Shown here in pieces: positions 43,856-60,605 of a DNA stretch of 64,000 bases. The stretch spans positions 124,001 to 188,000 of the forward strand of contig CAMCUD010000001.1 of NCBI GenBank assembly GCA_945878865.1. Reading direction: 5' to 3'. The position numbers and the translations under genes were made by a program. This stretch comes from Bifidobacterium breve. Lineage in GTDB: Bacteria > Actinomycetota > Thermoleophilia > Solirubrobacterales > Solirubrobacteraceae. The notes under the pieces are model-generated. The model was given only the letters and a program-made list of their open reading frames with translations. It made no database searches and had not been told where the DNA came from. Within the stretch, counting starts at the first letter, position 1. The number at the start of each line of letters is the position of its first letter.

Positions 43856-44065
43856 CTACTGGCGCTCGATGCGCAGCGCCCCGCTGGGGCAGCGGCCGAC
43901 AACCTCGACGACGTCGGCGGCCGGCGCGTTGTCCGGCTGAATCCAGGGGCGCGCCTGCGTGTCGAAGACGGCCGGGAGGCCGCGGACGCATTCGGCGGCG
44001 TGCCGGCACACCTCGCTGTCAAAGCTGACGTCGACGTCGGCGCCGGTGTAGGTCTTGCGGCTCAT
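43856..44065 (-). CDS. YjdI-like (4Fe-4S) mono-cluster protein
   Basis: A 69-residue protein of the YjdI/DUF1271 type: YTGADVDVSFDSEVCRHAAE with its first Cys, a second Cys in AECVRGLP, and VVGRCPSGALRIE at the end. In this family the cysteines are thought to hold an Fe-S cluster; with only three visible, one ligand may be His or another residue. The start overlaps the stop of the GNAT gene by 4 bp. The same YjdI-YjdJ pairing occurs in E. coli. Confidence 0.85.
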   Translation of the reverse strand: MSRKTYTGADVDVSFDSEVCRHAAECVRGLPAVFDTQARPWIQPDNAPAADVVEVVGRCPSGALRIERQ

Positions 44066-44367
44066 AGCCCGAATCGCTCCCGGTGCTCGGCCGGCACGAG
44101 GTCGGTGTACTGCGGGTGCCGGCGGATGTACTCGTTGATGAACGGGCAGAACGGCAGGACGGCGACCGCCTGCGCGCGGGCGTCGTCCAGCGCCGCCTTG
44201 GCGAGCGCGCTGCCGACCCCCTTCCCCTCGAAGGCCGGGTCGACCTCCGTGTGGATGAACGCGAGGAGCCCCGGCCGGTCGCGGTACTGCGCGAAGCCGG
44301 CGAGCTGCCCGTCGACGCGGACCTCGTAGCGGTGCTCGTCGGGGTTGTTCCGCACCACGGGATCCAT
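44062..44367 (-). CDS. YjdJ-like GNAT-family N-acetyltransferase
   Basis: A 101-residue minimal GNAT protein: YEVRVDGQLAGFAQYR, FIHTEVDPAFEGKGVGSALA (the acetyl-CoA pyrophosphate loop of the form Q/GxGxG/A) and VLPFCPFINEYIRRHPQYTD at the C-terminus. This length and ending are typical of the YjdJ group, whose substrate is unknown. The frame is open further upstream, but ATG 44367 is the last start before conservation and follows the large palindrome at 44392-44502, which would form a hairpin in its leader. Confidence 0.88.
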   Translation of the reverse strand: MDPVVRNNPDEHRYEVRVDGQLAGFAQYRDRPGLLAFIHTEVDPAFEGKGVGSALAKAALDDARAQAVAVLPFCPFINEYIRRHPQYTDLVPAEHRERFGL

Positions 44368-44391: not shown

Positions 44392-44502
44392 GGTGAACGT
44401 TGGTTCACCGGGGTCAGAGGCCCGCTGGACGTACGCTCGGCCCGCGGCGCCGGGCGAGCGTACGTCGTGCGGGGTCAGAACCCCGGTGAACCAACGTTCA
44501 CC
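44392..44502. repeat. 111-bp nested palindrome (intergenic hairpin element)
   Basis: The outer arms, 44392-44414 and 44480-44502, are a perfect 23-bp inverted repeat. Within them, 44428-44444 and 44451-44466 form a second stem of 16 pairs with one unpaired base and a 6-nt loop. Each outer arm is itself a small palindrome (GGTGAAC-GTTG-GTTCACC). A 9-bp direct repeat, GGGGTCAGA, occurs at 44410-44418 and 44471-44479. The element covers the stop codon of the upstream hydrolase gene and ends 25 bp before the GNAT start. It could be a terminator, a REP-like repeat or a structured RNA. Confidence 0.85.
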
Positions 44503-45199
44503 CGGCGAGGGGGCGGACCGCGGAGCGCACCCCGTCGGCAGAGCGGGCGGTCGGCAGGTGGTCGGCGAGGCGCTGGGTCGCCAGCGCCACGTGGGCCGGC
44601 GCGCCCGGCGTGGCCACGATCGCCACCGGCACGGCGATGGCCCGCAGCTCGTGCCGCGAGGGACTCCAGCTCGCACGCCCCGCGTAGTCGGCCAGCGCCG
44701 CCCGCGGGTACTCCGCCGCCGTCCCGCCGAACACCGCGTGCGCACCACCCGGGCCGGAGGCCCGCAGCGCCTCCTCGAGTGCCAGCCGCTCGGCGGCCAG
44801 CGCCTCGTTGGCCTCGGGGACGAAGGCGAACGCGGGAGGGTCGACGAGGACCGCCGCCCGGACGAGCGTCGCGTGCCGGACGAGCACGTCCAACACGATG
44901 AGCGCGCCGAACCCGAGGCCGACCACCGTCGCCGGCCCGTCGGTCAACGCCCGGAGCACCGCCGCCGCGTCCTCGGCCTGCTCGTGGATCGTCGTCGCGC
45001 GGTAGGCCTCCGGCGCGCCGCTGCCCCCGTAGCCGCGGCGGTCGTAGACCACGACGCGATGCCCGTCGGCCACGAGCGCCTCGCGCAGCGGGTCCAGCGG
45101 CGCGGCGCCCGACGCGAGGTCGTGGACGAGCACGACGTCGGGGCCGGAGCCCGATGTAGTGGCCGCCAGGGGTACTCCCGCCCCTTCGATCATCCCCAT
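44498..45199 (-). CDS. Alpha/beta-hydrolase-like protein lacking the nucleophile Ser
   Basis: A 233-residue protein with the alpha/beta-hydrolase fold pattern: VVLVHDLASG (oxyanion strand), YDRRGYGGSGAP, VVGLGFGALIVLDVL (nucleophile elbow), and AIVATPGAPAHV. The elbow reads G-L-G-F-G, so the usual Gly-x-Ser-x-Gly serine is replaced by Gly. The expected catalytic His near the C-terminus is also not obvious. It is probably not a conventional hydrolase; a binding or regulatory role is possible. The stop lies inside the large palindrome. It diverges from the large secreted-protein gene across 49 bp. Confidence 0.75.
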   Translation of the reverse strand: MGMIEGAGVPLAATTSGSGPDVVLVHDLASGAAPLDPLREALVADGHRVVVYDRRGYGGSGAPEAYRATTIHEQAEDAAAVLRALTDGPATVVGLGFGALIVLDVLVRHATLVRAAVLVDPPAFAFVPEANEALAAERLALEEALRASGPGGAHAVFGGTAAEYPRAALADYAGRASWSPSRHELRAIAVPVAIVATPGAPAHVALATQRLADHLPTARSADGVRSAVRPLAG

Positions 45200-57601: not shown

Positions 57602-58342
57602 ATGTCGGTCAAGACGCCCGAGGAGCTCGAAGGGCTGCGGCGCGCGGGGCGGGTTGTCGCCGAGACGCTGCGCGAGCTGCGTCGCCGTGCGCGCCCGGGC
57701 GTGACGACCGCCGAGCTTGACGCCGCCGCCGCGCGGATCTTCGCGCGCCACGGCGCGACGTCGGCGCCGCAGCGCGACTACGACGCGCCGTGCGCGGTGT
57801 TCATCAGCGTCAACGACCAGGCGGTGCATGGCCTGCCCGGCGCGCGGCGCTTGCGTGACGGCGACCTCGTCTCGATCGACGTGACCGTGGAGCTCGACGG
57901 GTTCTGCGCCGACGCGTGCGAGACCGTGGCCGTGGGCCGCGCCGGCCGTCAGCGCGTACAACTCGCGAGCGCCGCCCGCGCCGGTCTGGCGCGCGGGATG
58001 GCCGCGGCCACCGCCGGCGCACCGCTCAACGCGATCGGCGCCGCCGTCCAGGACGAGGTTGAGCGCCGCGGGTTCGCGGTGTGCGCGGACCTGACGGGCC
58101 ACGGCATCGGCCGCAAGATCCACGAGCCGCCGACGGTCGCCAACGTCTTCGACGCGGCCGCCACGCAGCCGCTGACCGAGGGGCTCGTCATCACGATCGA
58201 ACCGATCATCGCGGCGGGCACCGGTGAGGTCGAGCTGCTGCAGGACGGCTGGACGATCGCCACCGCCGACGGGTCGGCCGCAGCGCACGCCGAGCACACG
58301 CTCATGGTGACGAGCGGCGCGCCGGTCGTCCTCACCGCCTGA
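57602..58342 (+). CDS. map: Type I methionine aminopeptidase
   Basis: A 246-residue metalloprotease removing the N-terminal Met from new proteins. Metal ligands are visible in order: ISVNDQAVHGLPG, DLVSIDVTVELDGFCADACE (two Asp), LTGHGIGRKIHEPP (His), TIEPII (Glu) and AHAEHTLMV (Glu). Length and spacing are standard. It is not next to a secY/adk cluster as in some genomes, so a second copy elsewhere is possible. A terminator follows. Confidence 0.95.
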   Translation: MSVKTPEELEGLRRAGRVVAETLRELRRRARPGVTTAELDAAAARIFARHGATSAPQRDYDAPCAVFISVNDQAVHGLPGARRLRDGDLVSIDVTVELDGFCADACETVAVGRAGRQRVQLASAARAGLARGMAAATAGAPLNAIGAAVQDEVERRGFAVCADLTGHGIGRKIHEPPTVANVFDAAATQPLTEGLVITIEPIIAAGTGEVELLQDGWTIATADGSAAAHAEHTLMVTSGAPVVLTA

Positions 58343-58356
58343 CCCGCTCCACCCGC

Positions 58357-58402
58357 CGAACGTCGAAATGTTGTCGCTCCAGCGACAACTCCTCGACGTT
58401 CG
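58357..58402. terminator. Nested hairpin with CGAACGTCGA ends
   Basis: CGAACGTCGA (58357-58366) pairs with TCGACGTTCG (58393-58402), and inside it TTGTCGCT (58371-58378) pairs with AGCGACAA (58381-58388). The outer and inner stems are separated by 4-nt internal bulges. It lies between map (stop 58342) and the convergent GGDEF-EAL gene (stop 58419) and can serve both. Confidence 0.75.
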
Positions 58403-58418
58403 ACGCCGGTGCGGGCCG

Positions 58419-60605
58419 TCAGACGGTCACGCCGCCGAGCTTTTCGGCGATCTGCCCGGCCTCCAGCGGCCGGTCGAAGTGGTAGCCCTGGCCGATCTGG
58501 CAGTCCCAGCTGCGCAGGAGCTCGCCCTGCTCGGCGTGCTCGATCCCCTCGGCCACGACCAGCAGGCCCAGCGAGTGCGCGAGCCGCACGACGCCCTGGA
58601 CGATCGCGGCGTCGTCGGGATCCTCGGTGATCCCGTCGACGAACGACTTGTCGATCTTCAGCGTGTCGACGGGCAGCAGCTCGCGCAGGTGACGCAGCGA
58701 CGCGTGACCCACGCCGAAGTCATCGACGGCCAGCCGCACGCCGATCTCCTTGAGGTCACGGAGCGCGGCGGTGAGCACCTCGGGGTCGCCGAGGACGGCC
58801 GTCTCCGTGACCTCGAGGGTGAGCTGGCTCGCGCGGATCCCTGAGTCCGCGATGGCCTCGCGCACCGATGCGACGAAGCCCTCGGCGCCCAGCTGACGCG
58901 CCGAGACGTTGACCCCCACCCGGAGGTCCGTGCTGCCCCATGCGGCAAGCTGGTGACACGCCGTGCGCAGCACCCACGCCCCGATCTCGATGATCGTGCC
59001 GTTGCGCTCGGCCAGCGGGATGAAGCGCATCGGCGAGACCATTCCGATCGTCGGGTGCTCCCAGCGCAGCAGCGCCTCGACGGCGACCAGCCGGCCGCCG
59101 TCCTGCAGGTCGACGAGCGGCTGGTAGACGAGGCGCAGCTCGTCGCGCTCGAGCACGGTGCGCAGCGCGCTCTCGAGCTCGAGCCGCTGCACGGCCTCCT
59201 CGCGCATCGTCTCGTCGAAGACCTCCACCCGCGCCTTGCCGAGTTCCTTCGCCCGGTACATCGCGGCGTCGGCGTCGCGCATCAGCGTCGGCGAATCCGC
59301 CGCGTCACCGGGCGCGGAGACCTTCACGCCGACCGACGCCGAGACGAACCGGCGCTCGCCGTCGAGCACCACGGGCGCGCGCATCGCATGCTCCAACCGC
59401 GCCGCGACCTTCAGCGCCTCGTCCTGTCCCGTGATGCCGGGCAGCAGGATGGTGAACTCGTCGCCGCCGAAGCGCGCGATGACGTCGCCCTCGCGCAACG
59501 CGCCGCCCAGTCGGCGACCGACCTCCACGAGCAGACGATCGCCGGCCCCGTGGCCGAGCGAGTCGTTGACGATCTTGAAGTCGTCGAGGTCGACGAACAG
59601 CACGGCGGTGTGCTCGGTGCGCTCGGCCAGCGCGCCGTCGAGGTGGCGCTGGAAGAGCGCGCGGTTCGGCAGGCCGGTGAGCGGGTCGTGGTGCGCCTGC
59701 CACGTCAGCTGCGCTTCGGCCTCGCGACGCTTCGTCACGTCGATGACGTGGCTGATCCACGCGACGGGCTCGCCGTCCTCGTCGTGCAGCTGCGAGTGGC
59801 GCCACAGGCCCCAGCCGTGCGCGCCGCGGTGCCGCAGCTCGATCTCCTGCCCGTCGGCGGGGAACGGGCGGCCGGCGAGGTCGGCGGCGTCGACGAGGTC
59901 ACGCAGTGGCGCGCCCGTGGGGTCCTGGCCGAAGCGGGCGACGAGCGCGTCGTTGGCCTGCTGGACCTCACCGTCGAGGCCGACGAGCGCCATGCCGATC
60001 GGCGCGTCGGCGAAGGCCGAGCGGAACCGCTCCCGGCTCTCGGCGGTCGCCTCCCGCGAGATCTCGTTCAGCCGCCACGACACGAGGCAGACCAGGCCGA
60101 GGCAGGCGATGAAGAACGCGTGGATCGCCGCCCACTTCCATGGGTGCGCGATCGCGTCGGGGTGGTTGAAGACGGCGGTGGAGTCGAGCAGGCTCAGCAG
60201 GATGTGGTGCACGAGCACGTAGGCGAACGCCACGAGGTACGGGAACCACTCCTCGTAGAGCGAGAGCAGCGCGACCATCACGAAGAAGTGGAAGTGCGCC
60301 TCGATCGCCCCGTTCATGAGGTGCACGACGACGGCCGACGCGGTGAGCAGGCCGACCGTGACGCTGAGCTCGCGCATCCGGCGGCTGAGGACGTTCCAGC
60401 CGGCGAGCAGCGCGAAGGTCGTCACGGGCGCGACGTCGACGAGCGAGTGCGGGACGCTGTAGCCGTCGAGCAGCCCCCACAGGAACAGCACGGGGACGTG
60501 CCCCCAGAGGATGCACTCCATCCAGCGGTGGCGGATCGCCCAGGACGCGACGGGAAGCTCGCGGCCCCGGGGAAGCCAGGCCCAGAGCGCGTGGACACGG
60601 GACAT
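58419..60605 (-). CDS. Membrane PAS-GGDEF-EAL protein with His-rich sensor module
   Basis: A 728-residue protein. The first ~185 residues hold about six helices with a striking His motif, NGAIEAHFHFFVMVALLSLY, followed by VHHILLSLLD. Next come a PAS domain (about 195-310), a GGDEF domain (about 315-475; REGDVIARFGGDEFTILLPG, intact loop and I-site) and an EAL domain (about 485-728; VAVEALLRWEHP, NVSARQL, LEVTETAVL, AVDDFGVG). Both catalytic sites look intact, so it could make and degrade cyclic di-GMP. The sensed signal is unknown; the membrane His residues might bind metal or haem. Confidence 0.92.
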   Translation of the reverse strand: MSRVHALWAWLPRGRELPVASWAIRHRWMECILWGHVPVLFLWGLLDGYSVPHSLVDVAPVTTFALLAGWNVLSRRMRELSVTVGLLTASAVVVHLMNGAIEAHFHFFVMVALLSLYEEWFPYLVAFAYVLVHHILLSLLDSTAVFNHPDAIAHPWKWAAIHAFFIACLGLVCLVSWRLNEISREATAESRERFRSAFADAPIGMALVGLDGEVQQANDALVARFGQDPTGAPLRDLVDAADLAGRPFPADGQEIELRHRGAHGWGLWRHSQLHDEDGEPVAWISHVIDVTKRREAEAQLTWQAHHDPLTGLPNRALFQRHLDGALAERTEHTAVLFVDLDDFKIVNDSLGHGAGDRLLVEVGRRLGGALREGDVIARFGGDEFTILLPGITGQDEALKVAARLEHAMRAPVVLDGERRFVSASVGVKVSAPGDAADSPTLMRDADAAMYRAKELGKARVEVFDETMREEAVQRLELESALRTVLERDELRLVYQPLVDLQDGGRLVAVEALLRWEHPTIGMVSPMRFIPLAERNGTIIEIGAWVLRTACHQLAAWGSTDLRVGVNVSARQLGAEGFVASVREAIADSGIRASQLTLEVTETAVLGDPEVLTAALRDLKEIGVRLAVDDFGVGHASLRHLRELLPVDTLKIDKSFVDGITEDPDDAAIVQGVVRLAHSLGLLVVAEGIEHAEQGELLRSWDCQIGQGYHFDRPLEAGQIAEKLGGVTV

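Follow-up and report, generated by a model that had tools for sequence, protein, structure and literature searches.

The 111-bp palindrome described here, from a Solirubrobacteraceae genome, is one copy of a dispersed, non-coding REP-like repeat. It lies in a stretch of 64,000 nucleotides, which we call the window. Our preferred reading, to which we give a probability of roughly 0.6, is that the repeat is mobile and is the DNA site of a fusion of an AbiEi-like module with a DUF559 nuclease domain, whose cutting would drive the spread of the repeat.

The nested palindrome that the first-pass annotation reported is present in the sequence in all its parts, namely the outer arms, the inner stem of 16 pairs, the direct repeat and the stop codon of the hydrolase (Table 1). 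Each outer arm contains GGTGAAC-GTTG-GTTCACC, and the two 50-bp units that form the element each have the 9-bp direct repeat as their apical part. The element reaches into the hydrolase gene, whose TGA stop is read from the GGTGAAC end. The folding check that had been suggested gave −105.2 kcal/mol for the element as RNA, far better than shuffled sequences (z −10.5; 0 of 200 shuffles equal).

Table 1 Features of the window (positions within it) and AbiEi-DUF559 genes met at hairpins
Feature	Position	Strand	Remarks
111-bp element	44392..44502	.	head-to-head pair of 50-bp units (A-B / B-A), 11-bp spacer
Element arms	44392-44414 and 44480-44502		perfect 23-bp inverted repeats
9-bp direct repeat	44410-44418 and 44471-44479		GGGGTCAGA, spacing 61 bp
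Unit 1	44392..44441	+	half A 44392-44413, loop TCAGAG 44414-44419, half B 44420-44441
Unit 2	44453..44502	+	half B 44453-44474, loop TCAGAA 44475-44480, half A 44481-44502
Hydrolase TGA stop	44498..44500	-	given by half A of the element (GG-TGA-AC)
Alpha/beta-hydrolase gene	44498..45199	-	PF00561; 3' end abuts the element
YjdJ-like GNAT acetyltransferase gene	44062..44367	-	PF14542; downstream of the element
Type-C unit	58355..58404	+	same superfamily, GCCGAACGTCGAAATGTTGTCGCTCCAGCGACAACTCCTCGACGTTCGAC; between convergent methionine aminopeptidase and GGDEF-EAL genes
Methionine aminopeptidase gene	57602-58342	+	beside the type-C unit
GGDEF-EAL gene	58419-60605	-	beside the type-C unit
L026			own genome; A/B elements on both sides; intact, 294 aa
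L147			G002; elements on both sides; intact, 292 aa
L182			own genome; type-C elements on both sides; gene truncated
L197			G001; elements on both sides; frameshifted
L084			different family; unit over the start codon of the AbiEi-DUF559 gene; noticed solely through a weak unit match
L129			G001; more distant AbiEi-DUF559 gene between 53-nt inverted repeats of the GGGGCG-AGTTT-GCGTTC type
L214			G002; more distant AbiEi-DUF559 gene between 45-nt inverted repeats of the CTGTCGCGTTCACGGC type

A BLAST search of the element's own genome (96% complete) recovered about 30 matching loci, so the element is not a single-copy structure; at the same threshold, two genomes of the same genus gave no match. 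A model based on sequence alone resolved the same loci into 56 units at 30 loci (types A/B). Comparison of the copies shows a unit exactly 50 bp long, with two inverted 22-bp halves around a 6-nt loop, and no length change was seen across 52 segmented units. Half A reads GGTGAACG(T/G)TGGTTCACCGGGG and half B GCCGARCGTNNGTCNTGCGGGG. Twenty-nine copies, every one of them within a unit, share the identical 16-bp core of half A, GTGAACG(T/G)TGGTTCAC. Most A/B loci hold two units, 60–61 bp apart in 18 cases and 70–71 bp apart in four, so that the two spacings are roughly a helical turn apart. GAACGT predominates in outer halves and GAGCGT in inner halves (A in 37/44 versus 12/44, P = 1.2e-7), a bias that comes partly from half A, which always has GAA. 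A second family in the same genome, type C, comprises 17 units.

Both same-genus genomes (G001 and G002) and two other genera (G044 and G055) contain related families in which the 50-bp frame is kept but the inner sequence differs; several genomes are draft MAGs. G001 and G002 have GARCGTCGRAATGYGGYGG units, to which a third half-site is typically added 8 bp away in G002. G044 (AVDCRST_MAG85) has single units of the form GAACGTACG-TCGT-GCCGGG...CGTACGTTC, and G055 about 10 units of the GTGAACGTCGAAATCATGTCGC... type. All families share a 44-nt core frame (19+6+19), GARCGT...ACGYTC. A scan of 232 genomes of the order found multiple copies of the strict frame in G000 (18 matches), G002 (10) and G044 (31) only; elsewhere, as in G001 with one match, single matches are the most found, and the reversed frame pattern, used as a control, matched once. 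Two further G044 units in the same frame (L146 1501-1544 and L078 889-938) have other inner sequences, which suggests additional sub-families in that genome.

The units gather at gene ends. According to genes called by a simple codon-usage script on the stretches around the loci, the A/B loci of the own genome are convergent in 13 cases, tandem in 13 and divergent in 3; the corresponding counts are 14, 6 and 1 in G044 and 9, 4 and 2 for type C, with one more type-C locus inside a called gene (L187 743-792, own C5). The convergent setting thus accounts for 36/65 loci, compared with 6/50 gene pairs in the window (combined P = 9.5e-7). None of the 56 A/B units lies inside a called gene, the distance from unit to stop is often below 20 bp, and half A supplies the stop, through its TGA, at about eight own loci. 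A Guanidine-I riboswitch (RF00442, 77.9 bits) lies near one of the elements (L003 150-260, minus strand).

Comparison with relatives reveals sites without the repeat. The window locus is empty in G001 and G002, where the gap between the hydrolase and acetyltransferase genes is only about 35–40 bp; the L032 site has no element in G001, and orthologous convergent pairs in G004, a genus-mate of G044, are also without one. In G002, an element sits in frame within a membrane-protein gene (L141 1468-1550, G002:C27) and adds ~23 residues. G001 has a degenerate unit at that site, and the own copy of the gene is empty there and has an element at its stop instead. Strictly, the in-frame case is one of presence and absence, for which insertion is the simpler reading. 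The L008 site is occupied in all three species; we considered common descent for these elements, the alternative being a preferred site for independent insertion. No consistent direct repeat indicative of target-site duplication was found at 25 A/B loci. Phages and plasmids contained no DNA or protein relatives, and viral contigs none. Two suggestions of the first-pass annotation, a REP-like repeat and a mobile miniature element, gain from these results: multiple copies, gene-end location, empty sites and the in-frame element of a relative support them.

The same location, at 3' ends and mostly between convergent genes, could indicate that the units are bidirectional terminators or stabilizers of mRNA 3' ends that are kept by the host, their copies being alike through gene conversion and the nuclease association being incidental. 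Strong hairpins on both strands and C-rich flanks agree with such a role. We nevertheless regard it as unlikely, because just tens of gene ends per genome have a unit, the units have no U-tract, and their sequence and length are conserved far beyond the needs of a terminator. Moreover, orthologous gene ends are empty and one element lies inside a reading frame.

A structured regulatory RNA had also been suggested, and this idea is not supported. The element has no match in Rfam 15, and the variable stem positions of the genome's own type B do not covary (7 both-sided cells versus 17.3 in shuffles). Comparison of families does show symmetric change in both the outer and the inner stem (90.6% paired versus 74.2% in shuffles), a pattern compatible with a hairpin and with a dyad DNA-binding site alike, which it cannot tell apart. 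Complementarity between the halves of a single unit is lower than after random re-dealing of halves (own B, P = 0.0004; G044, P = 0.007; own C, P = 0.007). The lack of covariation within a family and the fixed length favor a putative DNA site in which perfect palindromy is avoided. A preference for heterodimers is known from REPs (PMC3733652).

What might recognize such a site is suggested by the genes between neighboring copies. Loci less than 2 kb apart are commoner than expected by chance (A/B, 4 pairs versus 0.35 expected; type C, 2 versus 0.11), and in four cases, spread over three genomes, two elements enclose a gene for one type of protein, AbiEi-DUF559. All seven AbiEi-DUF559 genes that we met adjoin hairpins, on both sides in six, and the hairpin sequences differ; these seven, a small sample, represent five genomic sites (L147 and L182 are syntenic, as are L129 and L214), and because all were met via elements, or at sites with an element in a relative, the proportion is not a general hairpin rate. 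L129 and L214 occupy the site at which the own genome has element L030. The window contains a single comparable inverted repeat (arms of at least 38 nt, 600–1400 nt apart), at 75%. The flanking units are in well-defined inverted orientation at L147 and L182 and in direct orientation at L197; the units being near-palindromic, an 'inverted' arrangement is trivial for some. No AbiEi-DUF559 gene was found near the units of G044 or G055. An arginase-family gene (L009 706-1723) and an MPAB-type oxygenase gene (L023 755-2126) likewise lie between two elements.

Similarity of the nucleases and similarity of their units fall together. For L182 and L197, nuclease similarity is 66% and the units agree at 40/50 positions; the values are 60% and 35/50 for L147 and L182, and 50% and 24–28/50 for L026 and L182. 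Since L182 and L147 are in synteny, nuclease and flanking units have diverged in parallel at a single ancestral site.

The C-terminus of the protein is DUF559 (PF04480), above the Pfam cut-off in L026, L147, L182 and L084, and the N-terminus matches AbiEi models of PADLOC with E values from 1e-10 to 7e-18. The alignment of the DUF559 nucleases has invariant E, D, ExD and H residues. The C-terminal domain alone was used for the structure search (pLDDT 78.7; the full-length model is poor, with pLDDT 46), and it models as a Vsr/homing-endonuclease fold: its best alignment is with the homing endonuclease I-Bth0305I (Z 10.2), followed by 3hrl (9.8), Vsr (8.9) and TnsA (6.6). AbiEi binds two 23-bp inverted repeats separated by 3 bp; for Rv2827c, the site consists of two tandem pairs, with 13 bp within a pair and 4 bp from one pair to the next (PMC7319586, PMC3985639). 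The 22+6+22 units that adjoin AbiEi-like genes show this layout of paired ~23-bp inverted half-sites, and with units often paired 11 or 21 bp apart the architecture is that of the AbiEi/Rv2827c sites. Based on this geometry and on the nuclease-like fold predicted for DUF559, we propose that AbiEi-nucleases bind the repeats and spread them by cutting.

From the observed association of nuclease and hairpin we infer binding, cleavage and mobilization by the nuclease. The AbiEi-type N-terminal DNA-binding module, fused to the Vsr/homing-endonuclease-like nuclease, would bind the half-sites (paired units 61 or 71 bp apart), the bound protein would cut DNA, and repair after the cut would copy the short repeat to new places. 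A nuclease gene between two copies of its own repeat would correspond to a RAYT gene flanked by REPs. Insertions that lie beside stop codons or replace them would be best tolerated, and copies would therefore gather at gene ends, mostly convergent ones; any effect of the units on host transcripts is likewise putative. In a more general form, AbiEi-DUF559 nucleases might spread the palindromes that they bind, their own operators, by cut-and-repair copying, with nuclease and site co-diverging into many specificities. This generalization is tentative, and we rate it slightly below even odds. The units might on the same joint claim be a new class of bacterial mobile repeat, which we put forward with the same reserve.

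The two-half geometry shared with AbiEi operators, and the L084 unit that overlaps the start codon of a nuclease gene, could also point to operators of a host regulon under AbiEi-like proteins that the nuclease does not move. This is improbable: the units are at 3' ends and rarely between divergent genes (3/29 own A/B loci and 1/21 in G044), and their positions differ among same-genus genomes. We consider it just as improbable that pairs of units are composite elements moved by some other enzyme, with AbiEi-DUF559 as cargo or defence. Other genes too are found between two units, and the N-terminus has matches among the AbiEi models of a defence library, but one type of protein is met repeatedly with different hairpins, and the similarities of protein and hairpin fall together. 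A classical REP/BIME moved by a RAYT (Y1 transposase) that was later lost is very improbable despite the gene-end location, stop-codon supply and dimers shared with REPs (PMC3733652) and the two Y1_Tnp genes of G044, since Y1_Tnp (PF01797) is absent from G000, G001, G002 and G022, the G044 RAYT that was examined (L082) adjoins the unrelated repeat GTGAGGGGACTGTCCCC, and the units have no GTAG tag and are longer than a REP. At L082 (G044:C168, 901-1700), the RAYT-like Y1 transposase gene follows several GTGAGGGGACTGTCCCCGCAC repeats, a separate and more classical REP/RAYT pair.

In the open-access literature we found no paper that connects DUF559 or AbiEi proteins with dispersed palindromes, and no described role for AbiEi-DUF559 fusions. 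DUF559 is still of 'unknown function' in Pfam, and these fusions would gain a role from a link to cognate dispersed palindromes. The same link would show that an enzyme other than RAYT can maintain populations of REP-like repeats, and would provide natural pairs of nuclease and site with differing specificities. It would also offer a testable origin for orphan palindromic repeats without RAYT, such as the CGTC REPs.

Several known systems resemble parts of this arrangement. Like MITEs, the elements are short, non-coding, multicopy inverted repeats, and the nuclease genes between elements may be an autonomous partner; unlike MITEs, they have no target-site duplication, every 50-bp unit is itself palindromic, and single, dimer and three-half forms occur. 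The predicted fold of the DUF559 catalytic domain is shared with I-Bth0305I, a Vsr-like homing endonuclease. Known enzymes of this group are freestanding or intron-associated phage enzymes, and we know of no link between them and hairpin repeat families. The operators of AbiEi and Rv2827c (type IV toxin–antitoxin) also consist of 22–23 bp inverted half-sites 3–13 bp apart, in single or tandem pairs, whereas here tens of copies are scattered over gene ends, and the AbiEi-type DNA-binding module comes joined to a nuclease. CGTC-tagged REPs are similarly palindromic, mostly dimers and without an associated transposase, but they have 8–9 bp stems and 4–5 bp loops, are reported from other phyla, and have no described association with a nuclease (PMC3733652). 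Parallels also exist with REP, BIME and REPIN sequences, which are also short palindromes in tens of copies, single and paired, with species-specific variants, and which lie between convergent or tandem genes beside stops that they may supply (PMC3733652); some REPs form a hairpin-bulge-hairpin (PMC6006769). As in REP/RAYT systems, an enzyme gene lies between copies of the repeat, although here it encodes an AbiEi-DUF559 nuclease and not a Y1 HUH transposase, and in place of a 20–40 bp repeat with a GTAG or CGTC tag there is a fixed 50-bp frame ending in GARCGT...ACGYTC. We propose that the units work like REP/RAYT with an enzyme and ends other than those that define that family.
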